In this document: in pieces, positions 2,622-49,274 of the stretch | How positions within the stretch are numbered: the first letter of the stretch is position 1 | Layout: each line of letters opens with the position of its first letter | NCBI RefSeq assembly: GCF_009936045.1 | Contig: NZ_QWEQ01000024.1 | Span: forward strand, 1 to 57,998 | Reading direction: 5' to 3' | Length of the DNA: 57,998 nucleotides | Source: Emergencia sp. 1XD21-10 | Lineage (GTDB): Bacteria; Bacillota; Clostridia; Peptostreptococcales; Anaerovoracaceae | Translations under genes and position numbers: made by a program | Notes under the pieces: generated by a model | The model's input: only the letters and a program-made list of their open reading frames with translations | Told to the model about the DNA's origin: nothing | The model's database searches: none

Positions 2622-3935
2622 ATGACTGAGAAAGAAACACTAGCTGACGGTATCTATGACGCTTCTTCCCTAGGCATGCCAAAAATGCTGATTCTAGGGT
2701 TGCAGCACACTTTCGCCATGTTTGGCGCGACCATACTGGTTCCGATTCTGACAGGTCTTGACGTATCTGTTACCCTGCTGATGGCAGGTCTTGGAACCCT
2801 TTTATTCCATTTACTGACCAAAGGCAAAGTTCCTGCCTTTCTAGGTTCGTCCTTTGCATTCCTTGGCGGTTATGCTGCTGTTGCACCGATGGTAGACGGC
2901 ACGCCTAACGAAGAGATGCTGCCTTACGCATGCGGCGGTGTCTTTGCTGCCGGCATCATCTACGTAATTATGGCGGCGCTAATTAAAGCTTTCGGCGCAA
3001 GAAGAGTTATGCGCTTCTTTCCGCCGGTTGTAACAGGTCCGATTATCATTTCCATCGGACTGATTCTGGCACCGACTGCTATCACTAACTGCCAGACCAA
3101 CTGGCCCCTTGCACTGATTGCCCTGCTTTCCATCATTATTTTTAACATCTGGGGAAAAGGCATGGTTAAAATCATTCCGATCATTCTTGGTGTAATCATT
3201 TCCTACATTGCAGCAATCTTCATGGGCGAAGTCGATTTGTCAGCAATCAGTGAAGAAGCCATCATCGGACTTCCTCACCTGACAGTGATGAAATTCGACA
3301 TTTCCGCCATTATCACTATTATGCCGATTGCTCTTGCAACCATGATGGAGCACATCGGAGATATTTCCGCTATCGGCGCTACCACAGGAAAGAATTATAT
3401 TTCTAATCCGGGACTGCACAGAACCCTTCTGGGCGATGGACTTGCTACTTGCCTTTCCTCAGCTTTCGGCGGTCCTGCAAACACTACCTATGGTGAGAAC
3501 ACCGGTGTTCTTGCTCTAACAAAGATTTATGATCCACGCGTTGTCAGAATCGCAGCCTGCTTCGCAATTCTGCTTTCCTTTATTCCAAAAATCAGCTTTG
3601 CAATTTCTTCTATTCCGGCGGCTGTCATCGGCGGTGTTTCCCTGATTCTCTACGGCATGATTTCCGCCATCGGAATCCGCAACGTAGTCGAAAATCAGGT
3701 TGATTTCACAAAATCAAGAAACACCATCATCGCAGCTTTGATTCTGGTCTGCGCACTGGGCTTTAACGCTGCAGGAGGTATTTCTTTCACCATCGCAGGT
3801 GCAACCATCACTTTATCCGGACTTGCTATTGCTGCAATCGTCGGCATCGTTGCTAACGCAATTCTGCCGGGCAACGACTACGAGTTCAGTGAGGAAGAGG
3901 GCACCGAGGAAAAGTTCCAGACCTTTAAGCTGTAG
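2622..3935 (+). CDS. uraA: Uracil permease (NCS2 family)
   Basis: This 437-residue polytopic membrane protein imports uracil with protons across the cytoplasmic membrane. It shows the UraA/PyrP hallmarks: MMEHIGDISAIG around residues 241-252 and GGPANTTYGENTGV around 283-296. The conserved acidic residues of the substrate site correspond to Glu243 and Glu292. Length and hydrophobic pattern (about 12-14 segments) are normal for NCS2 carriers. AAAGGAG lies 8-9 nt upstream of the ATG. The gene is monocistronic: its promoter is just upstream and its 3' end runs into the palindromic element at 3965. It is a different branch from the NCS2 permease of the catabolic island at 17247. Confidence 0.93.
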   Translation: MTEKETLADGIYDASSLGMPKMLILGLQHTFAMFGATILVPILTGLDVSVTLLMAGLGTLLFHLLTKGKVPAFLGSSFAFLGGYAAVAPMVDGTPNEEMLPYACGGVFAAGIIYVIMAALIKAFGARRVMRFFPPVVTGPIIISIGLILAPTAITNCQTNWPLALIALLSIIIFNIWGKGMVKIIPIILGVIISYIAAIFMGEVDLSAISEEAIIGLPHLTVMKFDISAIITIMPIALATMMEHIGDISAIGATTGKNYISNPGLHRTLLGDGLATCLSSAFGGPANTTYGENTGVLALTKIYDPRVVRIAACFAILLSFIPKISFAISSIPAAVIGGVSLILYGMISAIGIRNVVENQVDFTKSRNTIIAALILVCALGFNAAGGISFTIAGATITLSGLAIAAIVGIVANAILPGNDYEFSEEEGTEEKFQTFKL

Positions 3936-3964: not shown

Positions 3965-4187
3965 ATACATATTTCAACAAAAAACCTCAAAAATATGCAC
4001 ATTCTTCTCGAAAGGTGTGCATATTTTTTGGATTTTCCTTCAAAATATGTGAATCTCCAATAAAATAACTGCTAAACAGACGTAAAATTCGTGTCTAGCA
4101 GTTACAAACGTGCATATATTTTTGATTTTCTCTTGAAATATGTACGTCGCTGTACATATTTCGGGACTTTTTCTCCAAAATATGCAC
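3965..4187. repeat. Composite palindromic intergenic element, copy A
   Basis: Four 36-nt units lie at 3965-4000, 4017-4052, 4110-4145 and 4152-4187. The typical unit starts GTGCATATTT and ends AAAATATGCAC, so its ends are inverted repeats. Gaps between units are 16, 57 and 6 nt. Neighbouring unit ends also pair: 3988-4000 with 4016-4028 form a 13-bp stem, and 4135-4145 with 4152-4162 form a perfect 11-bp stem. The 57-nt gap contains a further palindrome, TAACTGCTA / TAGCAGTTA. A second copy with the same architecture is at 38916-39128. The element lies between the convergent uraA and HIT genes, and the first hairpin with its T-run could act as a terminator. No known element family is recognised. 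Confidence 0.85.
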
Positions 4188-4227: not shown

Positions 4228-4569
4228 TCAGCCTGGTGGCCAGGTCAGCTTACGTTTTCCAAGGATATGGAAATGCAAATGCTTTACAGTCTGGAAAGCA
4301 TCTTCGCCGTTATTGCTGACAACTCTGTAGCCATTTTCCAGCTCCAAATCGGTCGCAATTTCGTGAATCTTGAACATGATGTGTCCCATCAGCTCCCGGT
4401 CCTCTTCCTTAACATCATCCAGAGACGCAATATGCTTTTTCGGAATCACCAGCACGTGAACTGGCGCCTGCGGATCCAAATCATGAAATGCAATAATCTG
4501 ATCATCTTCATATGCCACATTGGAAGGAATCTCGTGATTTGCAATCATGCAAAAAATACAATCAGCCAT
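4228..4569 (-). CDS. HIT-family nucleotide-binding protein (HINT type)
   Basis: A 113-residue protein with the histidine triad HLHFHI near the C-terminus and the HINT-type start CIFCMIANHEIPS, where CxxC can hold zinc. HINT proteins hydrolyse AMP-linked amides (nucleoside phosphoramidates) in the cytoplasm. The start at 4569 is preferred over the TTG six bases upstream because AAAGGAG sits about 9 nt before the ATG. It overlaps the end of mtaB by 8 nt and belongs to the prmA-rsmE-mtaB-HIT run found in many Clostridia. Confidence 0.92.
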   Translation of the reverse strand: MADCIFCMIANHEIPSNVAYEDDQIIAFHDLDPQAPVHVLVIPKKHIASLDDVKEEDRELMGHIMFKIHEIATDLELENGYRVVSNNGEDAFQTVKHLHFHILGKRKLTWPPG

Positions 4570-5851
4570 TTTCAATCTCTCCTTTCATGCCGTCTTGATA
4601 TGGTTCTAAAAGTTTTACCCAGTAAAACTGATTTAGCATTTCGGGCGTTCCCATAGCATAAACCTTAACATAATTATCCGAATATCCCGTCAGAAGTCCA
4701 TCTTCTGTCAATTCCTCGAACAAAACCCTGCGAACAGCGCCGGTACACTTTTCAAAAAACTGTTGACTGGCAGCGTCGGCTTTTTCTATAAGTCTCTGAC
4801 TGCGCGCATTCTTAACTGTTCCACCTACTTGTTCGGTCATGTCAGCAGCTTTGGTGCCTTTGCGCGGAGAGTATTTGAAGACGTGTACTTTTAAGAAACC
4901 GGCTTGATCCACTATGCGCAGACTGTCAGCAAACTCGTCCTCCGTTTCCCCGGGAAAACCTACAATAATATCCGTTGTAATGCCGTAAAGGGGATCAAAA
5001 CCCTGTAGAACTTTCACAATATCCAGATACTCCTCCCGACTGTAATGCCTGTTCATGCGGGAAAGTACGCTGTCAGCACCGCTTTGAATGGACAGGTGCA
5101 GATGCGGACACAACTTCTCGTAGCCTAAAAGTCCCTTTACATAATCTTTGTTGATAACCGTAGGCTCAAGAGAGCTGAGGCGTATGCGAAAATCACCGGC
5201 AAGAGCGCTCAGTCTTGCTATCAGCGGCTCTATTCCATCGTAGCCTAAATCCTCTCCGTAAAGGGCGGTATTAATGCCGGTCAAGATGATTTCTTTGAAC
5301 CCTTTCTCAATAAGCCCTTTGGCCTCCTCAACAATTTCCTCTAAAGTTCGGCTGCGAACTTTGCCTCTGGCATAGGGAATGATGCAGTAAGAACAAAACC
5401 TGTTACAGCCCTCCTGAATCTTGATATAAGCTCTCGTCCGAGATTCCATAGACGTAATAATCCCTGTAGACTGATATTCGGTCAGCTCCTCATAGGCAAG
5501 CACATGACAACTGGAAACACCAGCCTCAATATAGCTGAGCAAGTTCTGCTTTTCGCCAGTTCCTGCAACAATATCTACCTCTGCAATAGCCTGTACTTCC
5601 TGAGGACTGACCTGAGCGTAGCATCCCGTTACCGCTACAAGCGCCTTTGGGTTTACTTTTTTCATTCTGCGAATATACTGGCGTGACTTACGGTCTGCCA
5701 AATTCGTTACCGTACATGTATTGATAACATAGGCGTCAGCAAAGTCCTCTTCCCCTACAATCTGGTGCCCTGCAGCAGCAAACTGTTCCTTCATGGCTTC
5801 TGTTTCATACTGATTGACCTTGCAGCCCAATGTGTGAAATGCAATTCTCAT
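4562..5851 (-). CDS. mtaB: tRNA t6A37 methylthiotransferase MtaB
   Basis: This 429-residue radical-SAM enzyme converts N6-threonylcarbamoyladenosine-37 of tRNA to its 2-methylthio form. Cys10 (in TLGCKVNQYE), Cys46 (NTCTVTN) and Cys77 (VTGCYAQ) bind the auxiliary iron-sulfur cluster. Cys149, Cys153 and Cys156 (CNRFCSYC) bind the SAM cluster. A TRAM-type RNA-binding domain occupies the C-terminus. GCKVNQYE separates MtaB from MiaB and RimO. The start at 5851 has AAAGGAA upstream; a longer open frame to 5908 lacks a good ribosome binding site. It is co-transcribed with the HIT gene. Confidence 0.93.
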   Translation of the reverse strand: MRIAFHTLGCKVNQYETEAMKEQFAAAGHQIVGEEDFADAYVINTCTVTNLADRKSRQYIRRMKKVNPKALVAVTGCYAQVSPQEVQAIAEVDIVAGTGEKQNLLSYIEAGVSSCHVLAYEELTEYQSTGIITSMESRTRAYIKIQEGCNRFCSYCIIPYARGKVRSRTLEEIVEEAKGLIEKGFKEIILTGINTALYGEDLGYDGIEPLIARLSALAGDFRIRLSSLEPTVINKDYVKGLLGYEKLCPHLHLSIQSGADSVLSRMNRHYSREEYLDIVKVLQGFDPLYGITTDIIVGFPGETEDEFADSLRIVDQAGFLKVHVFKYSPRKGTKAADMTEQVGGTVKNARSQRLIEKADAASQQFFEKCTGAVRRVLFEELTEDGLLTGYSDNYVKVYAMGTPEMLNQFYWVKLLEPYQDGMKGEIENG

Positions 5852-37441: not shown

Positions 37442-38383
37442 TTAAAACATTCCCAAGTTTTTAAACAGGAATATCCATAAAAACATGGTAAAACTTGCAA
37501 ATGCCGTGGTAAAAATTACAATTTCTCCCGCCAACTGTCCGTCGCTGTCCATGGACTGCGCCATCGTAAAAGAGGATACCGCCGCAGGGGATGCGAACAT
37601 AGCGAGCAGCGTCACAAACTCAATACCGCGAAATCCGCAAAGCGCCGCTGCGCAAAGCCCAACTGCCGGAATCACCACCAGCCTTCCGATGACGCAGATA
37701 AAGAGATTCTTGCCCCTGTTTCCCATCTCCTTAAAATCAATGGAAGAGCCCAAAATGACAAGTGCAAGAGGTGTTGTCACAGCCGCCATATCGCTGATGA
37801 CATCTTCCAGCATCTCTGGAAGTCGAATCTTAAAAATCACTGTTGCAAGTCCCGCCATTGCACCCAAAATCAATGGATTGGTCAACACTTTTCTGACAAT
37901 CTCGCTGGGGCTGGGGTTTCCTCCCCGAAACAGTTCCAGGGTAATCACCGCCATCACATTGTACATAGGTACTATCACCGCTACCATCATAGCAGTTACA
38001 CCTAAGTTTTCTCTGCCAAGAAGATTCACCGCAATGGGAAGCCCCATGATGACAAAATTGCTCCGGTAGAGTCCCTGAATCATAGCACCCCTGCTCTTTG
38101 GATTCTTCTCTACGGCAAAAGTCACCGCCATAGCTACTGCATAGATTACCAGCACTGCAATGACACCAAAGGCAAGCAGCTTTCCGTTAAAGGCTTCCCC
38201 AAGGTCTTTTCCGTAAAGGCTGTGAAACATCATGGCTGGAAAAAATACCACAAAGACCATATGGTTCATCTTCTTGATTTCAGGAGGCTCCATCAGCTTT
38301 GTTTCTTTGACCGCTACGCCAATTGCCATGAGAATGAACATGGGAAGCACCGCTTCCAAGGCTATGATAAAATTACTAAGCAT
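37442..38383 (-). CDS. AEC-family (auxin efflux carrier) transporter
   Basis: A 313-residue membrane protein with about ten helices in two repeats and the AEC motifs MAIGVAVKETKLM near the start and GLPIAVNLLGREN around residue 115. Bacterial members carry malate, malonate or other small organic anions. Its start overlaps the stop of the ferredoxin-like gene as TAATG, so the two are co-translated. Confidence 0.9.
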   Translation of the reverse strand: MLSNFIIALEAVLPMFILMAIGVAVKETKLMEPPEIKKMNHMVFVVFFPAMMFHSLYGKDLGEAFNGKLLAFGVIAVLVIYAVAMAVTFAVEKNPKSRGAMIQGLYRSNFVIMGLPIAVNLLGRENLGVTAMMVAVIVPMYNVMAVITLELFRGGNPSPSEIVRKVLTNPLILGAMAGLATVIFKIRLPEMLEDVISDMAAVTTPLALVILGSSIDFKEMGNRGKNLFICVIGRLVVIPAVGLCAAALCGFRGIEFVTLLAMFASPAAVSSFTMAQSMDSDGQLAGEIVIFTTAFASFTMFLWIFLFKNLGMF

Positions 38384-38820
38384 TACTTATAAAAAGGACA
38401 TGCCGCGCACTCCGGTCTTCTCGGATTTTCCGGGTCACAGTGAAGCGGAAAAATCCGAAGGTCGTGGCTCAGCTTATCTCCCATCAGGGATTTCAGAGCA
38501 GCAATCTGACACAGAGTTCCTACAAACTCCGTAGTAGTGCCCGCCTTTAGCTGGCGCATGGTTTCTCTATAAACCTTTGCCATATCCCTTTCATAATAAT
38601 CATCTTTATACTCGTAAAAATTCTCAAACTCCGGCAAATCCACCGGGTTGAAGACCGGACAGTAAAGAACACAGTTGTTGCACTTGGAACAGCCGTCCTC
38701 GTTGATGACCGGTTTCTTATTGCCGTTTTCGTCTCTTTCCATTTTGATGCAGGCATACTTGCAGCCGACGGTGCAGGCCTCACATCCGTTACAATTTTTT
38801 ACTCTATCTATAATTTGCAT
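38383..38820 (-). CDS. Ferredoxin / FrhB-N-like iron-sulfur protein
   Basis: A 145-residue protein with two [4Fe-4S] sites, CNGCEACTVGC at 10-20 and CSKCNNCVLYC at 44-54. The C-terminal half, with EFVGTLCQIAALKSLMG and a final CAACPFY, resembles the start of coenzyme F420 hydrogenase beta-subunit (FrhB) proteins. Full FrhB-like proteins are over 350 residues, so this is a short form or a truncated relative. AGGAG precedes the start. It is translationally coupled to the AEC transporter, suggesting a redox step linked to an organic acid. Confidence 0.78.
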   Translation of the reverse strand: MQIIDRVKNCNGCEACTVGCKYACIKMERDENGNKKPVINEDGCSKCNNCVLYCPVFNPVDLPEFENFYEYKDDYYERDMAKVYRETMRQLKAGTTTEFVGTLCQIAALKSLMGDKLSHDLRIFPLHCDPENPRRPECAACPFYK

Positions 38821-38915: not shown

Positions 38916-39128
38916 GTGCATATAATCCAAATTTTCCATCAAAATATGCACATTTTCTCAGAAATCCATGCAGATTTTCGAGTAAATCACAAAAAATATG
39001 CACAAATCCACTCAATACTGGCTAGTTACGCGCTGAAAGGTGCCCCATATGTGCATATTTTTAATGATTCTTTTAAATTTACGCACAGCTATGTGCATAT
39101 TTTTACGATTTTTCCCAAATCTATGCAC
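38916..39128. repeat. Composite palindromic intergenic element, copy B
   Basis: Four 36-nt units lie at 38916-38951, 38968-39003, 39051-39086 and 39093-39128, with gaps of 16, 47 and 6 nt. This is the same orientation and layout as copy A at 3965-4187. Units start GTGCATATTT (one starts ATGCAGATTT) and end ATGCAC. Between units two and three lies unrelated sequence, so the palindromes are conserved better than the middle gap. The copy lies in a 374-bp gap between DUF1848 and the ferredoxin-like gene, both minus strand. The rest of the gap shows no gene. Confidence 0.85.
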
Positions 39129-39194: not shown

Positions 39195-40130
39195 TTACAG
39201 CAGTTCATCCAAAGACATCTGCCAGCGAATCCAGCTTTCCTGCTCGCAGGATTTTATAATATCCCCATCCATAAAATCCCCGATTAAAAAAGGTGAAAAA
39301 GGATCGTGCTGTTTCATATTGTACTCCACAGTCTCCCTGTCGTAGTTAGCATAGCAATAAAGACAGCCGTGTCCGCAGGTATTGTACGCACCGATATCGC
39401 TGCCCAAAATACAGCTGCAACCATCTCTTGTCATGGCAGATTTTGGAACCGATAAGGGCAGTCCTATGGCCTTTTCGAGCACTTTCTGGCTCTGACAACC
39501 GCTGCAGTCAGCGCCAAACTGCGCAAGCTCATCACCTTCACCGCAAGGGTACAGTTTCATGCCTTCTTTTTCCGCAATCGTTACAAAGGCTTCACCAAGG
39601 CGCAGCCGGTCTTCTCTTGACACGCTCTTCCCTTCCGGAAAGTTTCGCTTGGTCTTATCATAAAGATCTAGAAAGCTGATGACACAATGCTCTGTGTAAC
39701 CGGAAAGCTTTTTTGCCATATTCTCAAAGGCTTCCAAATGAAAATCTACTGAATACTTTTCCGTAATAAAAATCGGATCGTACCGCCAGCTGATACAGCT
39801 TTTTCCTACCTTTTCAGAAAGAGCGCAAAAGCTTTCCATTACAACATCAGCAGGCGGTACATATGGTTCAATATCCGTTCCATAAGGCGTAATCGTCACC
39901 GACCAAAATTGGCGAAAAGGTGCTAGCTGCTCCAAATTTTCCAGCATAGGCGCAGGATTCTTTGTGCAGAAGGTAATGCAGTCAATGACGGTCGGATCCA
40001 GGAGATAACGGGTCACCTGCTGAGACTGATATGGGTTTCTTGCAAAGACAAAGCCTTCTTTGAGGCGGCGGTAAAACCACTTGCTGTAGAAGGCCGGTAT
40101 GTCTGTTCTGTTTCCTGTATTTAAAATCAT
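39195..40130 (-). CDS. DUF1848 family protein
   Basis: A 311-residue cytoplasmic protein of the DUF1848 family, with the N-terminal MILNTGNRTDIPAFYSKWF and the C-terminal CGHGCLYCYAN, an iron-sulfur-type CxxxCxxC motif placed at the end rather than at the start as in classic radical-SAM enzymes. Further cysteines (CSGCQ, DGCSC) could hold another cluster. The function is unknown. It follows the nucleoid-associated protein gene with no gap (TAAATG), so they share a transcript. Confidence 0.85.
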   Translation of the reverse strand: MILNTGNRTDIPAFYSKWFYRRLKEGFVFARNPYQSQQVTRYLLDPTVIDCITFCTKNPAPMLENLEQLAPFRQFWSVTITPYGTDIEPYVPPADVVMESFCALSEKVGKSCISWRYDPIFITEKYSVDFHLEAFENMAKKLSGYTEHCVISFLDLYDKTKRNFPEGKSVSREDRLRLGEAFVTIAEKEGMKLYPCGEGDELAQFGADCSGCQSQKVLEKAIGLPLSVPKSAMTRDGCSCILGSDIGAYNTCGHGCLYCYANYDRETVEYNMKQHDPFSPFLIGDFMDGDIIKSCEQESWIRWQMSLDELL

Positions 40131-48958: not shown

Positions 48959-48988
48959 ATTATACACCAGTATCACAGTTATTGTCAA
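48959..48988 (-). promoter_or_regulatory. Promoter of the tRNA cluster
   Basis: On the minus strand TTGACA (48988-48983), an 18-bp spacer and TATAAT (48964-48959) are both perfect consensus hexamers, about 33 bp before tRNA-Asn. Confidence 0.9.
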
Positions 48989-49147: not shown

Positions 49148-49274
49148 ATTGACAAATTCTCGATTTTTCGCTACTTTTGTCAATCTTTCCTTAAAAATTC
49201 AGCAAAAGACAACTGAAATTCGGATATTTTTTGACAAAATTGACAAATTTCAGCTTTCTTGTCAATTTTGTCAA
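49148..49274. repeat. Cluster of TTGACAA inverted repeats
   Basis: Six copies of TTGACAA or its complement TTGTCAA lie within 127 bp. The right-hand group is a perfect 16-bp inverted repeat (49231-49246 with 49259-49274, 12-nt loop). The left-hand pair is ATTGACAAA (49148-49156) with TTTGTCAAT (49176-49184). CTGAAATT (49213-49220) can instead pair with AATTTCAG (49246-49253), which overlaps the loop of the larger hairpin, so alternative folds are possible. Downstream, 49275-49400 is GC-rich and gene-free. Confidence 0.7.

Follow-up and report, generated by a model that had tools for sequence, protein, structure and literature searches.

What are the two composite palindromic elements in this stretch of Emergencia sp. 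1XD21-10 DNA (57,998 nucleotides, hereafter the window), and what keeps them? The initial annotation had described two copies of four 36-nt units each and proposed a mobile palindrome family, a structured RNA or a paired protein-binding array. A scan for the unit re-found both copies with the gaps first described, and counted eight units in the window, whereas five letter-shuffled versions gave 0 on average. The two arrays, which we assign to family F1, and their neighbouring genes are:

2622..3935, plus strand: xanthine/uracil permease, neighbour of array A, stop codon 29 bp before the array
3965..4187, no strand: F1 array A, four 36-bp dyads with gaps of 16, 57 and 6
3965..4000, no strand: dyad A1, half-sites ATACATATTT / AAATATGCAC
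4017..4052, no strand: dyad A2
4053..4109, no strand: middle gap of array A, 57 nt, hairpin fold of -13.3 and -18.5 kcal/mol (one per strand)
4110..4145, no strand: dyad A3
4152..4187, no strand: dyad A4
4228..4575, minus strand: HIT-domain protein, neighbour of array A, convergent, 3' end 40 bp past the array
38383..38820, minus strand: 4Fe-4S protein, neighbour of array B
38916..39128, no strand: F1 array B, four 36-bp dyads with gaps of 16, 47 and 6
38916..38951, no strand: dyad B1
38968..39003, no strand: dyad B2
39051..39086, no strand: dyad B3
39093..39128, no strand: dyad B4
39195..40130, minus strand: DUF1848 protein, neighbour of array B, 3' end 66 bp past the array

Across 74 units, the F1 unit is 36 bp long with half-sites RTGCATATTT...AAATATGCAY, in which TGCATA is near invariant. 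The source genome assembly (G000; 3.39 Mb, 116 contigs, 3.72% contaminated) contains 33 places that match copy A by blastn, and a sequence-only model of a unit-6-unit pair gave at least 127 matches at E <= 0.1, both strands counted, when the best 150 of 2841 first-look candidates were scored. Clustering of matches yielded at least 27 arrays of at least four units: 12 with gaps of 16/57/6 (in either direction), six with 16/46-47/6, six with 6/66-68/6, one with 16/47/16, one with 6/68/16 and one five-unit array with 6/16/36/6. Two pairs and three single F1 units lie outside full arrays. The similarity of the two copies had been left open to chance or a single recent duplication, should no further copies exist and spacing vary freely; instead, more copies were found and their spacing is quantised. 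The middle gap, first described as differing freely, does so in sequence but not in length, which is 46-47, 57 or 66-68 nt in the 26 four-unit arrays of G000. One half array at C26:10316-10401 (L002, L101) adjoins a second copy of the permease 3' end, and reflects either duplication or contamination.

Among 61 genomes, the pair model at E <= 0.001 returned at least 77 matches in G000 and at least 78 in Emergencia sp. isolate SUG182 (G008), two in G007 (one half array), one weak match in G003, and none in the other 57. SUG182 carries at least 21 arrays of at least four units, among 26 loci fetched; at one of them (L112, at the start of a dnaX-like ORF) a short tandem repeat adjoins the F1 array and is seen as a repeated peptide in an over-long ORF translation. 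In 84,980 named species genomes, a set that may leave out G000, ATATGCAC-N6-GTGCATATTT occurs in 29 stretches, of which seven are from SUG182; in the other 22, no array was found by a de novo scan (one 7-mer at least five times on both strands in 300 bp).

The stems had been said to differ between copies while keeping their pairing, and this did not hold across the family. Within units, pairs with changes on both sides numbered 1 against a mean of 4.2 in shuffles, and pairing of the two centre bases occurs in 2 of the 74 units, where 28.8 would be expected; with pairing below the level of shuffles, an RNA hairpin was rejected for the units. Pairing across the 6-nt gap was modestly above shuffles (11 pairs with changes on both sides against 6.7), an excess that comes in part from one paralogous subfamily. 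Units separated by the 16-nt gap have complementary centre bases, one in 16/16 and the other in 15/16 pairs where about 8 were expected, and neighbouring dyads therefore face opposite ways.

We then considered the spacing of units in 24 F1 arrays, with three paralogous copies and incomplete arrays left out. The 73 unit-to-unit distances were 42 bp (30), 52 (19), 72 (1), 82 (1), 83 (6), 93 (9) and 102-104 (7), and gave a phase vector of 0.987 at a period of 10.2 bp and of 0.956 at 10.4 bp, at phase zero. F1 units are thus spaced by whole helical turns. These observations bear on the proposal that the arrays are a structured RNA or a transcription terminator conserved for its fold, which we consider highly improbable. 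Pairing across the 6-nt gap would agree with it, as would terminator-like hairpins in about half of the F1 middle gaps, which follow sequence subfamily and are kept in several ortholog pairs; that of array A (4053-4109) is also present in its SUG182 ortholog. However, the units show no within-unit covariation, they are spaced in step with the DNA helix, a stable hairpin is missing from some middle gaps, and an Rfam search of the window found three tRNAs only, with no match at the arrays. Owing to their phasing, their conserved half-sites with freer interiors and their sub-shuffle within-unit pairing, the F1 arrays look like candidate double-stranded protein-binding sites rather than RNA stems, and the paired protein-binding array is the best supported of the three original suggestions.

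The freer interiors were evident when arrays were compared between G000 and SUG182. At least 18 array sites have common flanks in the two genomes, and we compared the 13 with at least four units in both, leaving out five pairs (L078/L116, L080/L126, L083/L120, L103/L115 and L104/L110) because of fewer units on one side or partial synteny. Half-sites were identical at 983/1059 positions (92.8%), a figure that carries some ascertainment because the set of sites came from a model of the same half-sites; unit interiors were identical at 595/848 (70.2%), gaps at 648/1001 (64.7%) and the 120-bp flanks at 1915/2813. Half-site identity was 0.90-0.96 for every pair, with no intermediate values. All gap lengths were equal in 9 of 13 sites, and the remaining four differ by +1, +1, +11 and +11. 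SUG182 lacks an array at G000 site L089, has a deleted remnant at the L085 site, and could be matched on one side only at L096. We propose that the F1 arrays are now kept in place by selection on half-sites and spacing, as these alignments suggest.

F1 arrays avoid promoters. The 32 array-bearing gaps of G000 comprise 13 convergent, 19 codirectional and no divergent gaps, against 12, 39 and 24, respectively, among 75 control gaps; with a looser ORF caller, one of 32 arrays falls in a divergent gap. A regulon was rejected, as the 35 proteins neighbouring arrays that we scanned have no common function. Genes of PF12784 (Rpn-type) follow the array-bearing genomes G000 (5), G004 (2), G005 (11), G007 (2) and G008 (4), but also occur in G009 (2); the seven remaining genus genomes have none. 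One such gene sits 278 bp from array L079. As ten PF12784 loci (L306-L315) held no array at threshold 4, this family was set aside as a partner. Phage cargo was also rejected: a scan of viral contigs gave no confirmed relative, and three unannotated fecal 'Bacteriophage sp.' records match weakly.

Arrays with a similar phased layout but unrelated half-sites occur elsewhere in the genus, and the window itself holds a further one:

49149..49274, no strand: third window array, TTGACAA family, dyad 49149-49183 plus nested dyads 49231-49274

This array, with a single extra copy at 48982, lies between a tRNA cluster and a minus-strand gene, and its family is also found in G007 and SUG182. At the L097 site, G004 has 39-bp units of the form GTTGTGCA-N23-TGCACAAC, which with up to two mismatches number 100 in G004, 51 in G000, 4 in G008 and 1 each in G003, G005 and G007 (control 0-1). 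From G007 (386 kb) the de novo scan returned 13 scan windows, from G005 (400 kb) 6 and from our 58-kb window 3, against 0 in 786 kb of shuffled sequence. Samples of 60-100 kb from G009, G010, G011 and G023 gave none, and a 60-kb sample of G037 gave two weak ones; such samples are too small to show absence, because G009 has an array adjoining a homologue of the protein described below. Across 17 families, represented by one array each, 90 same-strand distances gave a phase vector of 0.87 at 10.4-10.6 bp with phase near zero, whilst family medians alone phase less sharply (0.59-0.64, no peak standing out). Three families depart from this phase: CACCACG (86), GGCTAAA (51) and, in part, GCCGAAC (50). 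G005 also contains two 90-bp tandem repeats (L237:488-708 and L248:16388-16611) of similar skeleton and with different 7-bp inverted-repeat ends (TGGTTCT/AGAACCA and TGAACAC/GTGTTCA), neither adjoining any homologue gene examined.

Arrays of four families (F1, F2, AGCCCAA and GCCGAAC) were found to neighbour members of a single ~260-aa protein family, 38-47% identical between array families. The F1 gene lies on the minus strand of G000 contig C104 (8383-9162), with an F1 array 26 nt beyond the matched protein end; it is syntenic in G000 and SUG182 and under purifying selection (dN 0.100, dS 1.386). Homologue genes likewise adjoin arrays of the TTGACAA family, at G000 C8:16663 and G008 C11:8481. 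Profile matches at E <= 1e-10 were obtained in 32 of 99 relatives (13/13 in the genus, 19/47 in the rest of the family and 0/39 in the rest of the order), with up to 10 homologue copies per genome (G000 9, G008 8, G007 9, G005 7).

Two members searched against Pfam and NCBIfam had no match up to E 10, and 65 members compared with Pfam gave scattered weak matches only, the best being Phage_endo_I at 8.7e-5 in one. E158 and E203 are invariant in the 65 homologues, and P187, D188, F189 (PDF 187-189) and H204 are conserved in at least 90%; from the alignment, these putative catalytic residues fit the E...PD...(D/E)xK type, the K position being H204 or unclear. All 65 match the nuclease-bearing PADLOC model PDC-S68 (best 4.2e-38) over the C-terminal end of its 1221 positions. 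The matching residues, ~135-256, correspond to the nuclease end at the C terminus of large proteins (PDC-S68 and plasmid AAA/helicase proteins), from which the present protein differs in its length of ~260 aa, another N-terminal part, the lack of a helicase and the adjoining arrays. The structure predicted for 260 residues (pLDDT 93.9, pTM 0.72) had no Foldseek match in the PDB at E <= 0.001 (best 0.08); the leading rows, all above that threshold, included Can2, DrdV, a restriction-endonuclease-like protein, Bax1 and R2, several of them PD-(D/E)XK nucleases, with prefoldins for the N-terminal part. The protein has an N-terminal helix/beta-hairpin/long-helix part followed by a putative C-terminal domain that bears a PD-(D/E)XK nuclease-type signature.

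To quantify the association, we counted repeated words around homologue genes. An exact 7-mer in at least five copies within 700 bp was present at 28 of 75 homologue loci (25/70 distinct) and at 24 of 387 control ORFs from G005 and G007 (Fisher p 1e-9, computed with 24/70 loci). By a tolerant score with one mismatch allowed and 360-bp flanks, 37/70 homologues and 6/140 controls reached 7 or more (Fisher p 8e-16); 33/70 homologues score below 7, and about nine of the 37 above it rest on AT-rich words. Ten genes have the array on their 3' side, where it starts 4-38 nt after the end of the matched protein, and other genes have it 5', which speaks against simple autoregulation.

The words also matched individual paralogues. 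Eight of 12 tested (F1, F2, AGCCCAA, GCCGAAC, GAGCAAA, TGACAAA, GCGTAAC and ATGGTGC) occur 3-9 times next to a single paralogue or its orthologue, with a median of 0 around the remaining genes, although only the last four are independent, because the first four led to the protein. Among 4000 random 7-mers, 145 occurred at least four times next to one or other of the 70 genes by chance. AATTTGC was ambiguous (three copies near L369, five copies 435 bp from L374), and the tandem-repeat words AGAACCA and GTGTTCA and the control CTGCAGC had no copies beside homologue genes. On the protein tree, orthologues keep their motif (the F1 pair is 80% identical, the TGACAAA pair 63%) and paralogues differ. 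For the ATGGTGC arrays dispersed in G000, the matched gene lies in SUG182 instead. No cognate gene was found for the F1 half array in G007, for the F2 array in SUG182, for F2 in G004 (assembly 73% complete) or for TGACAAA in G007, where a partial homologue (C81) lies outside the loci examined. The association of arrays with the protein, together with their phased double-stranded architecture, is well supported.

This association allows two further readings to be weighed. The arrays could serve the host at gene 3' ends as sites of chromosome architecture or insulation, much as BIMEs bind gyrase and IHF, with the protein a non-cutting binder and mobility past or incidental. Half-sites and spacing conserved in place, the avoidance of divergent gaps, the heterogeneity of the 35 scanned neighbours and helical phasing are all consistent with such a role. 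We nevertheless regard it as unlikely, given that catalytic-type E158 and E203 are invariant in the homologues, and that a general role needs no several families per genome with private motifs.

The other reading turns on mobility. Four G000 arrays (C104b, C8, C71a and C28) share 74-82% identity along their full length (222-225 aligned bp), and their flanks are unrelated, except for a common tt at the right. The copied unit is exactly the 223-bp array, with sharp ends, and C104b (L075) is the gene-adjacent array. In addition, a tyrosine recombinase gene directly adjoins an F1 array at L097 (G000) and L105 (G007). Such sharp-ended copies, and the recombinase, would be expected if an ordinary transposase or recombinase moved the arrays as miniature elements, the nuclease gene being a bystander that shares their insertion sites. 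Yet arrays match paralogues motif by motif, and the recombinase has no match at E <= 1e-15 in G004 or in SUG182, with its 21 or more arrays, and was discarded as the mover; its relatives in G006 and G010 had no array in the adjoining stretches inspected. MITEs are likewise short, non-autonomous and copied as units with sharp ends; in contrast to these, no target-site duplication was seen in array flanks or at two SUG182 sites, no autonomous parent element or transposase with matching ends was found, and selection acts in place on every half-site and gap length. A bystander nuclease is accordingly a very doubtful reading, whereas the mobile palindrome family first suggested is borne out in part, by the four copies in unrelated flanks.

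The RAYT-type transposase guessed at the outset fared worse, as Y1_Tnp (PF01797) matches do not track arrays: the domain is absent from array-bearing G005 and present in G001 and G012, and the G000 copy has an internal stop. Dispersed extragenic palindromes in several families per genome would suit REP/REPIN elements moved by RAYT, a Y1 HUH transposase. However, a GTAG-type tetranucleotide is typical at the REP 5' end in the RAYT table of PMC2817692, and it is absent from the ends of the F1 consensus, which also forms no covarying hairpins; we give this reading next to no credence.

We favour a two-part system as the probable explanation, in which phased arrays and a stationary PD-(D/E)XK-type gene work in a REPIN/RAYT-like manner while standing outside that group. 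Its binding, oligomer state, nuclease activity, cutting, copying mechanism and host benefit are inferred. Dimers of the ~260-aa protein would bind each 36-bp dyad through its two RTGCATATTT half-sites, and dyads on one face of the helix, by virtue of their whole-turn spacing, would let bound dimers pair into one complex or loop. Nuclease activity, present or past, may have copied whole 213-244-bp arrays into further intergenic positions at the 3' ends of genes; selection on half-sites and spacing would since have maintained them there. Further paralogues in this and related genomes would act likewise, each with an array family of its own.

Several known systems share parts of this arrangement. 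As far as PMC3116915 and PMC2817692 describe them, REP/REPIN-RAYT repeats are also dispersed and extragenic, form several private families per genome, and are long kept, each family being tied to, and often beside, a stationary gene. A repeat family beside its own stationary gene is what we observe, with a PD-(D/E)XK-type gene instead of RAYT. In the accounts of those two papers the enzyme is a Y1 HUH transposase and the repeat a short GTAG hairpin; here the repeat is a 36-bp double-stranded dyad with a free interior, and dyads stand four or five to an array in phase with the helix. The BIMEs of E. coli, which bind gyrase, IHF and Pol I (PMC2817692), are likewise composite, extragenic palindrome arrays with set spacers at the 3' sides of genes, but their palindromes are REP hairpins in that account; here whole-turn spacing extends across unrelated families and the cognate gene is not RAYT. 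Searches of open-licence PubMed Central papers yielded no description of such arrays or of the present protein together with arrays, in agreement with the initial remark that no element of this layout had been described, and this points to the pairing of nuclease-like proteins with their own genome-wide DNA sites being undescribed.

The case for a new class of nuclease-repeat system seems to us evenly balanced. Such a class would consist of multi-copy PD-(D/E)XK-type proteins, each with a private phased dyad array that spread and was then selected, protein and array specificity changing together and several pairs coexisting per cell; the arrays may serve as a mobile element, as chromosome anchors, or as DNA by which self is marked or shielded against its own nuclease. 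If true, the REPIN/RAYT idea of a captive enzyme with dispersed DNA sites would have arisen again with an unrelated nuclease class, and with a site that is double-stranded and helically phased. These genomes would then offer many natural protein-site pairs in which change of DNA specificity could be studied, and Clostridia a candidate system of genome-wide architecture or self-marking; a protein family without a Pfam or NCBIfam entry would gain a testable function.
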